Shown: piece by piece, positions 11,811 to 20,498 of the stretch | Position numbering within the stretch: position 1 is the first letter of the stretch | How the letters are laid out: every line of letters begins with the position of its first letter | DNA from: Aestuariivita sp. | Lineage (GTDB): Bacteria; Pseudomonadota; Alphaproteobacteria; Rhodobacterales; Rhodobacteraceae | Assembly: GCF_021404545.1 (NCBI RefSeq) | Contig: NZ_JAAWWD010000007.1 | Location: forward strand, 1 to 64,000 | Length of the DNA stretch: 64,000 nt | Reading direction: 5' to 3' | Notes under the pieces: generated by a model | What the model was told of the DNA's origin: nothing | The model's database searches: none | What the model saw: the letters and a program-made list of their open reading frames with translations, nothing else | Made by a program: the position numbers and the translations under genes

Positions 11811-11885
11811 TGGGATGTAGCCAAGTGGTAAGGCAACTGTTTTTGGTACAGTGTATCGTAGGTTCGAATCCTACCATCCCAGCCA
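11811..11885 (+). tRNA. tRNA-Gln (anticodon TTG), CCA encoded
   Basis: TGGGATG/CATCCCA acceptor stem, anticodon stem ACTGT/ACAGT with loop TTTTGGT, T-arm GGTTCGAATCC, terminal GCCA. Confidence 0.96.
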
Positions 11886-12280: not shown

Positions 12281-12300
12281 AACCCCCTGAACAGGGGGTT
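12281..12300. promoter_or_regulatory. Inverted repeat AACCCCCTGAACAGGGGGTT upstream of the histidine kinase gene
   Basis: Perfect 7-bp arms around TGAACA; no clear T-tract. Confidence 0.5.
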
Positions 12301-12391: not shown

Positions 12392-14293
12392 TTGTTTAGG
12401 TCCCTGCACACGCCCGCCGCCCGTCTTTCCGTTCTCTTTGCTGTTGCTGCGACAGCGATGCTGGTGGTGTGTGGACTGACAATCTATGGGCAGGACCGGC
12501 AACAGAATGTCAGCGGTCTGAGCGCGCTTTGGCAGCAGGATTTCAGGTTCTGGGTGCAAATCCTGACGGGTATGGGTGCATTTTTGATCGCCGCGTGGAT
12601 CTGGGCTTTGAAGCCGCGCAACCCTGATGTGACGCTGTTTGCGCTCAGTGGCTTGGCCACGATGACGTTCACTTTTGCTTACGCGCCGCTTGGGGGTGTT
12701 GGTGTGGTCATGCCGGCCGAGGTTTTGGTGCCACTCTACCGGGTCAACGCGTTGGGGGCATCGCTGTTTGGAATCGTCATGACGGTGCTGTTGCTGCGCT
12801 ATCCCGTGCGCCTGCCCTTTCACCAGGTTTTGACGGCCGCCGCAGTCGTGGGATTTGGTGGCTGGACCGTCGCCGCGCTGCTCGGCCCGGTCGAGGGGCT
12901 GATGATCATACATACCATCACCTTTCTTGAGATGTTATGTATGATCACAGCTGTGATCGGTCAGTACTTCGCCACCCGGCGCTTTCCCAAGGAACGTGCC
13001 ATCGCGATTTGGCTGGGCATTTCCATCATAGTGGGATCTGGCATTTTCATCGCACTGGTGGCCGCACCCATTGCGCTGGGCCTTGCGCCACTGGTGGATG
13101 AGCGGTTCGCCTTCTCATCGTTTCTGCTGGTCTACATTGGGATGGCCGTTGGCTTGACCCGGTACAGGGTGTTCGAGCTTGGCGAATGGGCGTTTTACGT
13201 CCTTTTCTATGTCGCGGGTGCGATCCTGTTGATTACCATAGATATTGCGCTGATCTTTCTTCTGTCATGGGATGCACGCGCCTCGCTCGGGTTGTCGTTA
13301 TTGCTGGTTGCGCTGGTCTATCTGCCGACGCGAGATGTGTTCTGGCGATCGCTGTTCCAGCGCAAACGCATGCAAGAGCATGAGCTGTTTCAGTCCATCT
13401 TCGATGTTGCGTTTGAGCCCGATCGCGACAATCGCAATCTGCGATGGGGGGAGCTGTTCAACACCCTGTTCGAACCGCTTGAGCTGGTTATGGCGGAGAA
13501 TGCCGATCCCCGGCCTGTGATCCGCGATGATGGTGTCACGCTGTTTGTCCCCGCAACCGCGGCGATGCCTGCAATGGTGCTGCGCCACCCCTGGCGTGGC
13601 AGGGGACTGTTCGGACCGCGTCACCTGCGGACAGCGCAGCACCTGGTCGATATCATGTCACGTGCGGAGGAAGGGCGCCGCGCCTATGATCTGGGCGTCG
13701 CAGAAGAGCGGACACGGATCGCGCGCGACATGCACGACAATATCGGCGCCCAGTTGATGAGCGCGCTGCACAGTCCCGCGCTTGAACGCAAGGACTTGAT
13801 GATCGGGCAAACCCTGAGCGATCTAAGAGACATCATCCGTAACGCCACGCGCCCCGGCCTTCCGGTTGAAGAAGCTCTTGCGGATCTGCGTGCCGAAACA
13901 GCCGAGCGGTTCGAACCGACGGGGATCACTTTGAACTGGGAAGCGCAGGGACAGCCAGACACCGCGCTGGCACCTGATCCGGCACACGCATTGCGGTCAC
14001 TGGTGCGTGAGGGGGTGAGCAACATTATCCGCCATTCCTCGGCCAGATCCGCAAGTGTTCACATCGATTACCGCCCGGATCAGATCACTGTTCAAATGAC
14101 CGATGACGGGCGCGGTCTGAGTGAAAACAGCACCGGCACAGGATCGGGATTACAAAGCATGCATGACCGTGTGCGCGCCTTGGATGGCACATTTGAGATC
14201 CGCGATCAGGGAACCGGCACATCCATCACAGCCACATTTCCGCTATCGGGGCAGGTTGCGTCCGGGATCATTGCTGGGCAAGCCGCCGACTAA
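12392..14293 (+). CDS. Membrane sensor histidine kinase (HisKA_3 / NarX-DegS type)
   Basis: Multiple N-terminal TM helices; ERTRIARDMHDNIGAQLMSALHS H-box; HATPase motif DDGRGLSENSTGTGSGLQSMHDRV; TTG start with AAAGG upstream. Confidence 0.88.
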   Translation: MFRSLHTPAARLSVLFAVAATAMLVVCGLTIYGQDRQQNVSGLSALWQQDFRFWVQILTGMGAFLIAAWIWALKPRNPDVTLFALSGLATMTFTFAYAPLGGVGVVMPAEVLVPLYRVNALGASLFGIVMTVLLLRYPVRLPFHQVLTAAAVVGFGGWTVAALLGPVEGLMIIHTITFLEMLCMITAVIGQYFATRRFPKERAIAIWLGISIIVGSGIFIALVAAPIALGLAPLVDERFAFSSFLLVYIGMAVGLTRYRVFELGEWAFYVLFYVAGAILLITIDIALIFLLSWDARASLGLSLLLVALVYLPTRDVFWRSLFQRKRMQEHELFQSIFDVAFEPDRDNRNLRWGELFNTLFEPLELVMAENADPRPVIRDDGVTLFVPATAAMPAMVLRHPWRGRGLFGPRHLRTAQHLVDIMSRAEEGRRAYDLGVAEERTRIARDMHDNIGAQLMSALHSPALERKDLMIGQTLSDLRDIIRNATRPGLPVEEALADLRAETAERFEPTGITLNWEAQGQPDTALAPDPAHALRSLVREGVSNIIRHSSARSASVHIDYRPDQITVQMTDDGRGLSENSTGTGSGLQSMHDRVRALDGTFEIRDQGTGTSITATFPLSGQVASGIIAGQAAD

Positions 14294-14299
14294 ATCCAG

Positions 14300-14956
14300 C
14301 TATGACGGCGTTCCTGGATCCTTCGCCGTCAGCCCCATCTGCGTTGCGTGCCATGACGCCTCGGCCCTGGATGAAATACCCAGCTTGCGGTATATCCCCT
14401 TGATATAGCCAGCAATGGTGCTTTCGGCCAAATCCAATTCATCGGCGACTTCGGCATTTCGCAGACCGCGTGCAATCAGCGACAGCACATCCGTCTCGCG
14501 CTGTGTTAACTGGTGTTCGTTACGGCTGACCGGGCCTGTCAGGCGGAAATGCTGCATAATGCGCCGGGCGATGGGAGGGGACAACGCCGGAATGCCAGCG
14601 CCAATCTGACTGAGCTGCCGGGCCAACACATCTGAGGGGTTTTCTTTCAATAGGTACCCATCTGCCCCCGCAGACAAGGCCGCAACCACGGTTGCATCAT
14701 CGCTCATCACTGTGGTGACCACACAGATGGTCGGCGCACCATGCCCGCGCAGAATGCGCAGAACATCGACGCCCGAACCATCGGGCAGGCCGATATCGAT
14801 GAGCGCGAGATCATAGACTTTTTCCTCCAACATCGCGCGCGCGTCCCGCAGAAATGGGGCGCAATCTATCTGTGCCTCAGGGTATGCAACGACAGCAATG
14901 TCATGCAGCCAGAGCCGGGTCTCTGCGATGTCTTCCACAATCAGGATGTGCTTCAT
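14300..14956 (-). CDS. NarL/FixJ-family response regulator
   Basis: MKHILIVEDIAETRLWL receiver domain, DLALIDIGLPDGSG phospho-acceptor site, LTQRETDVLSLIARGLRNAEVADEL LuxR HTH. Confidence 0.93.
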   Translation of the reverse strand: MKHILIVEDIAETRLWLHDIAVVAYPEAQIDCAPFLRDARAMLEEKVYDLALIDIGLPDGSGVDVLRILRGHGAPTICVVTTVMSDDATVVAALSAGADGYLLKENPSDVLARQLSQIGAGIPALSPPIARRIMQHFRLTGPVSRNEHQLTQRETDVLSLIARGLRNAEVADELDLAESTIAGYIKGIYRKLGISSRAEASWHATQMGLTAKDPGTPS

Positions 14957-15161
14957 AACCGCGCCCGCCTCATGATGTCTGCGCATGTGTCACCGGGTGG
15001 CCGTTCGATAAGAACATGCGATGCGACTCTCGATGAGATGACGGGGTCACACAGACACATTGGTTTCTTACACTCTCGATTTGACGGCCGTGGGCAAGGG
15101 CTTCGGGTTGGGTGCCGCCGCCCCATGGCAAAACACCATAATCAAAATTACTGTCCCGTGG

Positions 15162-15178
15162 CCCCCCTGAACGGGGGG
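15162..15178. promoter_or_regulatory. Inverted repeat CCCCCCTGAACGGGGGG upstream of the surface lipoprotein
   Basis: 6-bp arms around TGAAC; same core as 12281..12300. Confidence 0.5.
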
Positions 15179-15251
15179 CAGACATCTTGGCGAGCAGCTG
15201 AAATACCTTTCTTTCATAACGGGTTAGAAGCCCGCAGGAAAGGGGATTACT

Positions 15252-15962
15252 TTGAAAAAGTCTGCGATTTTGAATATGGGTGTAGTGCTGATTGCCACCA
15301 CTGCACTGTCTGGCTGCCTGGGATCTGACAGCAACGGAGGCGGTGCCACCGCGGCAAGCGGCGGCGGGGGCGGATCATCCGGCGGCGGCACTGTGACATT
15401 TGCCAATTACCAAAGCGAGTTTGATCGTGTGAGCATGACGATCCCGACATCTGACATGCCGACGACACTGAAAGGCAATTATGTTGGCGCGATGCAAGCG
15501 CAAGTCGGAGATGCCTCCGGCAATATTGCGGGCTCACTCGTGGCTGATGTGAACCTTGCCATTGACTGGACCGAAGGGGCGACACCCAACCCGTTTTCCG
15601 GCGGCGCGTCGAATTTCCGCGGCACGACGGATGGCGGCACGACTGTCGAAGCGATCTCGGGCTCGCTCAGCGTCGATCCGAACCTGCCGAGTGCCATCAT
15701 CCGCAACTCAAACACGCTGAACACCGTGGCCGGTCAGGTCACAGTGGACGCAGGGTCGATGACCGTGCCGCTGGCCGGTGATCTGACACTGAACGGTCAA
15801 ACCGCCGAGGCAAACGTTCTATTGGGTGGCGGCTTTTTCGGTTCGGGCGGCACCGCCGCGGCAGGCACCGCTGTGGGTGGATTCAGAGCTGCTGGTACAG
15901 CGCCTTTGTCAGGGATATTCGACGGCTCTATCTCGGGCACCTATTACGTGGAACGGCAATAA
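15252..15962 (+). CDS. TbpB-like (Slam-cargo-type) surface lipoprotein
   Basis: Lipobox TALSGC, Gly/Ser-rich linker, C-terminal barrel-type GGGFFGSGGTAAAGTAVGGFRAAG; next to a DUF560-type barrel gene. Confidence 0.75.
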   Translation: MKKSAILNMGVVLIATTALSGCLGSDSNGGGATAASGGGGGSSGGGTVTFANYQSEFDRVSMTIPTSDMPTTLKGNYVGAMQAQVGDASGNIAGSLVADVNLAIDWTEGATPNPFSGGASNFRGTTDGGTTVEAISGSLSVDPNLPSAIIRNSNTLNTVAGQVTVDAGSMTVPLAGDLTLNGQTAEANVLLGGGFFGSGGTAAAGTAVGGFRAAGTAPLSGIFDGSISGTYYVERQ

Positions 15963-16055
15963 ACCCGCGCATTTCATTACCTAATCTATTGATTGGCCTC
16001 TGCCCACGGACAACCGATCCCGATTGGTGGTCCGTGGGACATTGACAAAGGTATC

Positions 16056-17342
16056 GTGACCATTTCCCGGATCTTGATCGTCCTGCTATGCTTTTTCTGG
16101 TCTTCTACGGCCTGGGCGAGCCCGCTTAACACGGCAGAAGCGCTGATCGAACATCAAGACACCCAGCAAGCCATCGCTCTCTTGGAAGATTATACACCTG
16201 CCAGCGTCGCTGAGCAGGAACGTCGGCTTTGGGCATTGGCTGTGGCTTACGGTCGAGAGCAGCGCCCGCGAAAGGCGCTTCCGGTTCTGGAAAAGCTGGT
16301 GTCGCTTAATCCACGCAGTGCCACCTACAGGCTGGAACTGGCCTCGGCATTGATGGCTGCCGAACAGGATGACCGCGCGCATTACCATTTCAGCCTGTTG
16401 CGCGGATCCGTCGACGATCCCGAGACAGCCGCAGCGCTGGACGCACGGCTTGAGACGCTGAACCGGCGTAAATCCTGGCAGGGTTTTTTCAGCTTTGCTC
16501 TGACACCCGAAACCAATGCGGCGCGGCGCACGGCCGCGGACTCCATCGTGATCGGTGGCCTGCCCATTCTCATCGACCCGGCCGCGCGTGAGCAATCCGC
16601 AACCGGCGTGCGCGTCATACTGGGTGGCGCATTGCTGCCCCGGCTCGGCAAGGACACCCGCGCGCGCATCGGCCTGTCTTTCGACGGGCGGTTCTTCGGG
16701 TCCGACAAAGCGTTCGACGATGTCACAGTGACCGGCCGCCTCGGCCTTGTGACGTTCGGGGACCGGGCACGCCAGATCAGTGCAACCCTTCATACGGCAC
16801 AGCGGTGGATTGATGGAAACCGCTATTCGCTCACCTCGGGCCTGACCCTGCGCTACGGTCAGCTTATCGGACAATCCGGAGCGCTTCTGATGAGCGCGCG
16901 CCTTCAACAGATCGACTATGACCGTCCAGGTCTGCGAACAGCCCGGGAAACTCGGTTGCAGATGCGCTATGCGCATAACCTGTCGCCTCGGTTTCAGCTG
17001 TATGGCAGTGGCTATGTCGAGGACAGATCAACACCAAGTGCCGCCGATGCCGGATCTACTTTGGGTCTCACCGTCGGCACGCAATACCTGTTCACAGGCG
17101 GCTTGCAAATCGGGCTTGAGGTGGAGCGAAGCCGTTTGAGCCGCGATGGTCCCCATCCGTTGTTAGGGATCCGGCGACAGGATGAGAGGTTTTACACAAC
17201 ACTGCGCGTGAGCAATCGCAACTGGCAGGCGCGCGGTTTCACGCCTTTGCTGGAACTCGGATTTGAACGCCAGAACTCGTCGCTAGCCCTCTATGAATAT
17301 GACAACACACGGCTGTCGATTGGCCTCACCCGGGCGTTCTGA
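16056..17342 (+). CDS. Slam-like surface lipoprotein assembly modifier (DUF560: N-terminal TPR, C-terminal outer-membrane beta-barrel)
   Basis: Signal peptide VTISRILIVLLCFFWSSTAWA, TPR-like ALPVLEKLVSLNPRSATYRLELASAL, C-terminal SSLALYEYDNTRLSIGLTRAF ending in an aromatic residue. Confidence 0.82.
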   Translation: MTISRILIVLLCFFWSSTAWASPLNTAEALIEHQDTQQAIALLEDYTPASVAEQERRLWALAVAYGREQRPRKALPVLEKLVSLNPRSATYRLELASALMAAEQDDRAHYHFSLLRGSVDDPETAAALDARLETLNRRKSWQGFFSFALTPETNAARRTAADSIVIGGLPILIDPAAREQSATGVRVILGGALLPRLGKDTRARIGLSFDGRFFGSDKAFDDVTVTGRLGLVTFGDRARQISATLHTAQRWIDGNRYSLTSGLTLRYGQLIGQSGALLMSARLQQIDYDRPGLRTARETRLQMRYAHNLSPRFQLYGSGYVEDRSTPSAADAGSTLGLTVGTQYLFTGGLQIGLEVERSRLSRDGPHPLLGIRRQDERFYTTLRVSNRNWQARGFTPLLELGFERQNSSLALYEYDNTRLSIGLTRAF

Positions 17343-19943: not shown

Positions 19944-20498
19944 ATGAAACGACACTCATTTACCCGCTCCGTTCTGCTCGTCTGCCTGCTTGCGACACCT
20001 GCCGCCTCTCAAGAAATGATGCTGGGGGTGGGCCATGCCGACTATGCCCGTCAGGGCACCGATACCGGGATCCTCAGCGCGACCTACCGGCACACCCCGT
20101 TCTACCAGGGCGACAAGCTGGCCCTGTCGTTTGGCGCCCATGTCAGCGTCACCGGCGAGAGCGACGTTTATGTGGCCGCAGGGCTCTACGGGCGCTGGGC
20201 CTGGCCCTCGGGATGGTTTGTCGATCTCAGCCTGATGCCCGGGCTCTACGATGCGGCCTCACCCGGCAACGATCTGGGCACAACACTCAATTTCCGCTCG
20301 CTCTTGGGTGTCGGCTATCGGTTCGAAAACGAGCGGATCCTTTCGGTGGCCGTTTCTCACAAGTCAAATGCGGGCATTGATACGTTCAACCCCGGTGTCG
20401 ATGCGCTGCTGGTCCGGTATCATGTCCCACTCAAACACGCCCGTCGGACCCGGGCGCGGCGCCAAAAAATCACCAGGCCCTGGCCGAAGTCGCATTGA
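19944..20498 (+). CDS. PagL-like lipid A 3-O-deacylase / acyloxyacyl hydrolase family outer-membrane protein
   Basis: Signal peptide; C-terminal SVAVSHKSNAGIDTFNPGVDALLVRY resembling the PagL HxSNAG...NxG active-site region. Confidence 0.72.
   Translation: MKRHSFTRSVLLVCLLATPAASQEMMLGVGHADYARQGTDTGILSATYRHTPFYQGDKLALSFGAHVSVTGESDVYVAAGLYGRWAWPSGWFVDLSLMPGLYDAASPGNDLGTTLNFRSLLGVGYRFENERILSVAVSHKSNAGIDTFNPGVDALLVRYHVPLKHARRTRARRQKITRPWPKSH

Follow-up and report, generated by a model that had tools for sequence, protein, structure and literature searches.

Background

Slam1 has been described as an outer-membrane translocon, with Skp as the holdase and no requirement for ATP (PMC9090332). For the families considered here, Grossman et al. 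2025 (PMC12282271) described T11SS proteins and placed those of Rhodobacteraceae and Roseobacteraceae, including predicted barrel-bearing cargo lipoproteins, in 'cluster 3'. In the main text of that paper, the cluster-3 locus is given with a flavin-dependent thymidylate synthase (ThyX), a glyoxalase, and DUF1194, and the cargo as proteins of 282–375 aa with N-terminal and pedestal domains and a C-terminal eight-strand barrel. Marine cluster-3 T11SS proteins seldom adjoin recognisable cargo there, and targeting was left open. The main text contains none of the terms 'kinase', 'response regulator', and 'LuxR'.

The locus compared with these systems lies in a 64,000-nucleotide stretch of an Aestuariivita sp. 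contig (NZ_JAAWWD010000007.1, positions 1 to 64,000), hereafter the window (Table 1). It resembles the Slam1-TbpB and Slam2-HpuA pairs of Neisseria (T11SS cluster 1A) in having a PF04575 protein with TPR helices and a 14-strand barrel next to a lipoprotein with a predicted TbpB-type barrel; unlike those pairs, it has a one-barrel cargo with no handle, no TonB-dependent receptor partner, and an attached two-component system with a predicted operator. With cluster 3, as presented in the main text of PMC12282271, it shares the host families, the SlipAM protein, and a predicted lipoprotein cargo with a C-terminal barrel, whereas its cargo of 236 aa is a single barrel and its neighbours are a kinase and a regulator. 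The 'Disordered N-terminus 1' T11SS cargo of the same paper can be set beside it by description (an unstructured N-terminus, then a C-terminal barrel), although the disordered part here is only about 25 residues of Gly/Ser.

The T11SS family is thus not new, and the preliminary description of this locus as an 'undescribed surface-display system' was too strong, because T11SS proteins and barrel cargo of Rhodobacteraceae and Roseobacteraceae were already in PMC12282271. That description also missed the most informative part, namely the adjacent kinase and regulator that are conserved with the pair, and the operator-like palindromes. Apparently new here is the predicted regulation of a T11SS pair by a kinase, a regulator, and an operator, a description of which was not found in the main text of PMC12282271.

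Table 1. Coordinates of the module in the window
Feature	Position	Strand	Remarks
Second predicted operator copy, CCCCCTGAACAGGGGG	12283..12298	+	~95 bp upstream of kinase start
Sensor histidine kinase	12392..14293	+	Multi-TM, HisKA_3 + HATPase_c; module member
NarL/LuxR-type response regulator	14300..14986	-	Response_reg + GerE; module member
Predicted operator at cargo promoter, CCCCCTGAACGGGGGG	15163..15178	+	One mismatch to consensus core, then CAGAC
-10-like box, AAATAC	15200..15206	+	At conserved distance from palindrome
Lipoprotein (predicted cargo)	15252..15962	+	TTG start, 236 aa; SPII signal (Cys22), Gly/Ser tether ~25–48, single TbpB_B_D-type beta-barrel domain (predicted)
T11SS/Slam-family (SlipAM, PF04575) outer-membrane protein	16056..17342	+	Signal peptide, then TPR helices and a 14-strand barrel; TTG at 15993 as alternative start

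The Slam-family protein

The GTG start of the downstream gene, which gives 428 residues, is likelier than the TTG of the longest open reading frame. The protein has the signal peptide MTISRILIVLLCFFWSSTAWA and ends in ...YEYDNTRLSIGLTRAF at 17342. It is a T11SS/Slam-family (SlipAM) outer-membrane protein: PF04575 was matched at 60.7 bits (cut-off 22; residues 203–449), which bears out the earlier assignment to Slam/DUF560, and TPR_19 and TPR_14 were above their cut-offs. PF24575 (TPR_Slam) was under its cut-off in this protein (22.8 vs 35.2). PF04575 was likewise matched by all 16 SlipAM homologues tested.

The window proteins were modelled with AlphaFold, with relatives aligned as input. The SlipAM model has TPR-like helices at residues 23–138 and 14 barrel strands at 141–427 (mean pLDDT 89), which is the Slam fold that had been proposed. 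Its Foldseek matches include BcsC-type TPR barrels, PelBC, and the 14-strand OmpG, the last with a TM-score (target) of 0.63–0.68. The gene is single-copy in the 4.82 Mb assembly (99.96% complete). The protein probably moves the neighbouring lipoprotein to the cell surface, and we infer that the cargo is translocated and exposed through it.

The lipoprotein

The lipoprotein gene is preceded by the ribosome site AGGAAAGGGG, and the signal region of its product reads MKKSAILNMGVVLIATTALSGC followed by L, with the lipobox LSGC; lipid attachment is predicted at Cys22. A Gly/Ser tract and the motif GGGFFGSGG...VGGF follow. Both genes are real and had been described correctly, from the lipobox, the Gly/Ser tract, and the GGFFGSGG...VGGF motif to the downstream barrel gene with its signal peptide. 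In the AlphaFold model, residues up to 45 are disordered and are followed by a confident, ordered beta-barrel domain of nine strand segments (pLDDT >90 over most of residues 46–236).

Direct searches gave no Pfam, NCBIfam, or PADLOC assignment for the window lipoprotein, and the cut-off of PF01298 (TbpB_B_D) was not passed. This model matched 3 of 19 lipoprotein homologues weakly (best E 0.0033) and had no match in the search of the organism's own genome or in the control genomes, so that this blank is uninformative by itself. Foldseek found no solved structure for the lipoprotein model at E<=1e-3, and its 50 best matches include neither TbpB nor fHbp nor haemophilin. The PDB sequence search with the cargo profile returned mainly Gly-linker artefacts, with LbpB chains at E ~0.03 only.

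The cargo profile, an alignment of the 19 homologues, was also compared by hhalign with a profile from an independent alignment of Pfam-verified alphaproteobacterial TbpB_B_D domains. The match had a probability of 95 and an E-value of ~2e-8, against 0.24 or worse for the reversed and eight column-shuffled controls. A bridge protein (L070), encoded beside a SlipAM gene in a Defluviicoccus MAG, has a 59-bit TbpB_B_D domain at residues 608–733, and the cargo profile aligns to its residues 602–736, coinciding with that domain. Because of the profile–profile match and this bridge, the lipoprotein is classed, at the level of sequence, as a distant single-barrel relative of TbpB_B_D domains. The earlier label 'TbpB-like' therefore stands for the ancestry of the barrel and not for the handle domains or for PF01298 membership. 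The two lobes with handle domains and the TonB-receptor partner of a whole TbpB are absent; the protein is a single barrel on a Gly-rich leash, with no TbpB handle or effector domain.

As had been stated, no TbpA/HpuB partner is present: no TonB receptor gene is adjacent, and the only two PF00593 matches of the genome are on other contigs, for which reason the lipoprotein is unlikely to serve in iron piracy together with a TonB partner.

The four-gene module and its conservation

The kinase and regulator domains were all above their cut-offs, HisKA_3 barely (24.2 vs 24). The window kinase is without the N-terminal extracytoplasmic segment of its relatives (a recognisable PDZ domain in one of them) and is inverted in orientation relative to them.

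Homologues of the lipoprotein were found in 21 of 397 family genomes. Since 16 of these 21 have a same-strand SlipAM homologue immediately downstream, the adjacency is not due to chance. Contigs were scanned for Slam loci with a 7-member Slam alignment, the 16-member alignment being too diverse, and in the named Rhodobacteraceae records found with the Slam alignment, an equivalent kinase and LuxR-type regulator flank the pair. In the larger locus set, the four genes remain together in divergent, co-directional, and convergent orders, and about 20 Rhodobacteraceae species have kept the module through this gene shuffling. The exact four-gene block also occurs on large plasmids of Sagittula stellata E-37 (typed as conjugative), Sulfitobacter pontiacus, and Ponticoccus alexandrii, where the flanks are unrelated on both sides.

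The membrane/sensor region of the kinase gave 25 strong matches in the 397 genomes, of which 17 adjoin SlipAM, one a decayed SlipAM, one three tandem cargo-type genes, and six neither. Three of the 17 belong with a distant second SlipAM clade that has other lipoproteins. This second clade, linked to the same kinase/regulator family, was seen at L163, L166, and L167; the intervening gene at L167 encodes a Gly-rich lipoprotein of 423 codons. The three tandem cargo-type barrel lipoproteins lie beside the kinase and regulator at L158 (genome G255), with no SlipAM within the 14 kb examined.

Some loci depart from the pairing. In G062 (L109), the cargo and the operator are intact, whereas an in-frame TAG interrupts the kinase gene and just a short piece of SlipAM is left, an apparent joint decay of sensor and translocon. 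In G393 and G123 (L111, L112), a lone cargo-type lipoprotein gene lies between edd and eda, with no adjacent SlipAM gene and no operator match. G275 matched the lipoprotein profile only weakly, and the match in G157 was rejected as an OmpA/Pal-type lipoprotein that had been matched through its signal peptide and Gly tract. The cassette is also present in a record deposited as the actinobacterium Enemella evansiae (L062), of which the name looks wrong, as its contig matches in length that of G003 from the window's own family.

In the surroundings of the window module, a tRNA-Gln (ttg) gene lies at 11811–11885, some 400 bp ahead of the predicted operator copy at 12283, and is a possible insertion point of the module. 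A PagL-type lipid A 3-O-deacylase gene (19944–20498) lies close downstream, after an opposite-strand gene for a YchF-like GTPase.

The pair might also be an ordinary one of the published Rhodobacteraceae cluster-3 kind, with the kinase and regulator beside it by ancestry only, and the T11SS proteins with predicted barrel-cargo lipoproteins published for these families (PMC12282271, main text) speak for this. We regard it as unlikely. The linkage is kept across the changed gene orders and on the plasmids with unrelated flanks, and within the genome the predicted operator is nearly confined to the promoters of cargo and kinase. DUF1194, the hallmark neighbour in cluster 3, is absent from the module; contigs C36 and C92 carry the two copies of the genome. 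The few DUF1194-linked Slams fall within a small clade to which the window Slam does not belong, its own clade consisting of Slams with a linked kinase and regulator.

The predicted palindromic operator

Nearly every module locus has the palindrome CCCCCTGAACAGGGGG, with GAGAC after it, upstream of its cargo gene. Of the 21 promoters, all have GAC behind the palindrome and 12 share a single fixed distance to a -10-like ATA core, any other offset being found at most once. Such a spacing would be expected of an activator site that abuts the -35 region. The window has two palindrome sites against 0.07 expected, and none of 100 shuffles had two. In the organism's own 4.8 Mb genome there are three near-matches, two of them in the module, upstream of the kinase and lipoprotein genes; the third (C57:103218) was set aside, as it is within overlapping long open frames and does not have the extended C/G arms.

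The exact palindrome was found in none of 13 sampled genomes without the module and once each, at the cargo promoter, in G003, G062, G077, G209, and G343. It was not found printed in a bacterial context in the literature searched. Loci in which the kinase gene stands apart from the cargo gene, such as that of the window, have one copy for each, and the sister branch L089 has a compensated palindrome, TCCCCCGAACGGGGGA. On contig C2 of G380 (L162/L200), the kinase and regulator were observed with no cargo or SlipAM nearby, and the same contig has eight operator-like sites around genes of other predicted secreted or periplasmic proteins. The regulator of G380 seems to have a different, larger regulon. 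Because these sites are kept with no cargo or SlipAM, the palindrome follows the regulator rather than the cargo, and with six genomes that have the kinase but neither cargo nor SlipAM beside it, the regulator is not tied to T11SS everywhere.

GC-rich palindromes are able to act as RNA stems, and in L158 a copy follows shortly after the stop codon of a cargo gene. That the palindrome is a leader or terminator hairpin, or that it serves an unlinked regulator, is nonetheless quite improbable. The palindrome is upstream of the -10-like box with its fixed spacing and should therefore not be transcribed from the cargo promoter; its exact form is absent from the module-free genomes scanned, its change in L089 is compensated, and the separated kinase and cargo each keep their own copy. 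Judged from their sequence and placement, the palindromes at the cargo and kinase promoters look like the operator of the module's kinase and regulator.

Proposed mechanism

The locus is best read as a signal-gated, self-regulated T11SS cassette that displays a minimal-barrel lipoprotein, to which we give a probability of roughly 0.7. The membrane kinase would phosphorylate the LuxR-type regulator, which would bind the palindrome directly upstream of the cargo promoter and also upstream of the kinase gene, and the bound regulator would activate the lipoprotein and translocator genes together. The lipoprotein would be exported by its SPII signal, lipidated at Cys22, kept from folding on its way across the periplasm by a Skp-like holdase, as TbpB is, and passed through the 14-strand SlipAM barrel. 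Outside, it would fold into a single eight-strand TbpB-type barrel tethered by the flexible Gly/Ser linker. Since handle and effector domains are both missing, the barrel may itself be the translocation signal as well as the functional part, probably ligand- or surface-binding, a role that is a guess. Several observations count against the reading as a whole: the blank PF01298 and Foldseek searches for the window lipoprotein, the six genomes with the kinase and regulator but no cargo or SlipAM, among them G380 with its operator-like sites at other genes, the missing N-terminal segment of the window kinase, and the lone lipoprotein genes between edd and eda in two species.

It is very improbable that SlipAM is instead a TPR-barrel polysaccharide exporter of the BcsC/PgaA/PelB type with the lipoprotein as a periplasm-facing helper: BcsC and PelBC are among the best Foldseek matches of the barrel model and the TPR region matches PgaA weakly, but PF04575 is far above its cut-off in all members, the modelled barrel has 14 strands, the PgaA and BcsC models score far under their cut-offs, the partner has a T11SS-cargo barrel, and the four-gene cassette includes no glycosyltransferase or synthase.

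For the signal-gated display cassette, a broader claim can be made that we consider evenly balanced: that this T11SS lineage travels as a self-contained unit of kinase, regulator, private operator, minimal-barrel cargo, and translocon, that the regulon here is essentially the cassette itself, and that the lone TbpB-type barrel serves as translocation signal and surface effector.

Implications

In a marine-type bacterium, the cassette would link Slam-type secretion to a dedicated regulator composed of a sensor kinase, a response regulator, and a DNA switch. In the Rhodobacteraceae clade, Slam and cargo are paired one to one, the cargo, a single barrel, is as small as is plausible, and the switch is built in. 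Here it can be tested directly whether the barrel by itself acts as the translocation signal. The defined sensor and predicted operator provide a route to the natural signal. For free-living bacteria, the cassette would connect lipoprotein display with the sensing of the environment, a connection that can be tested.
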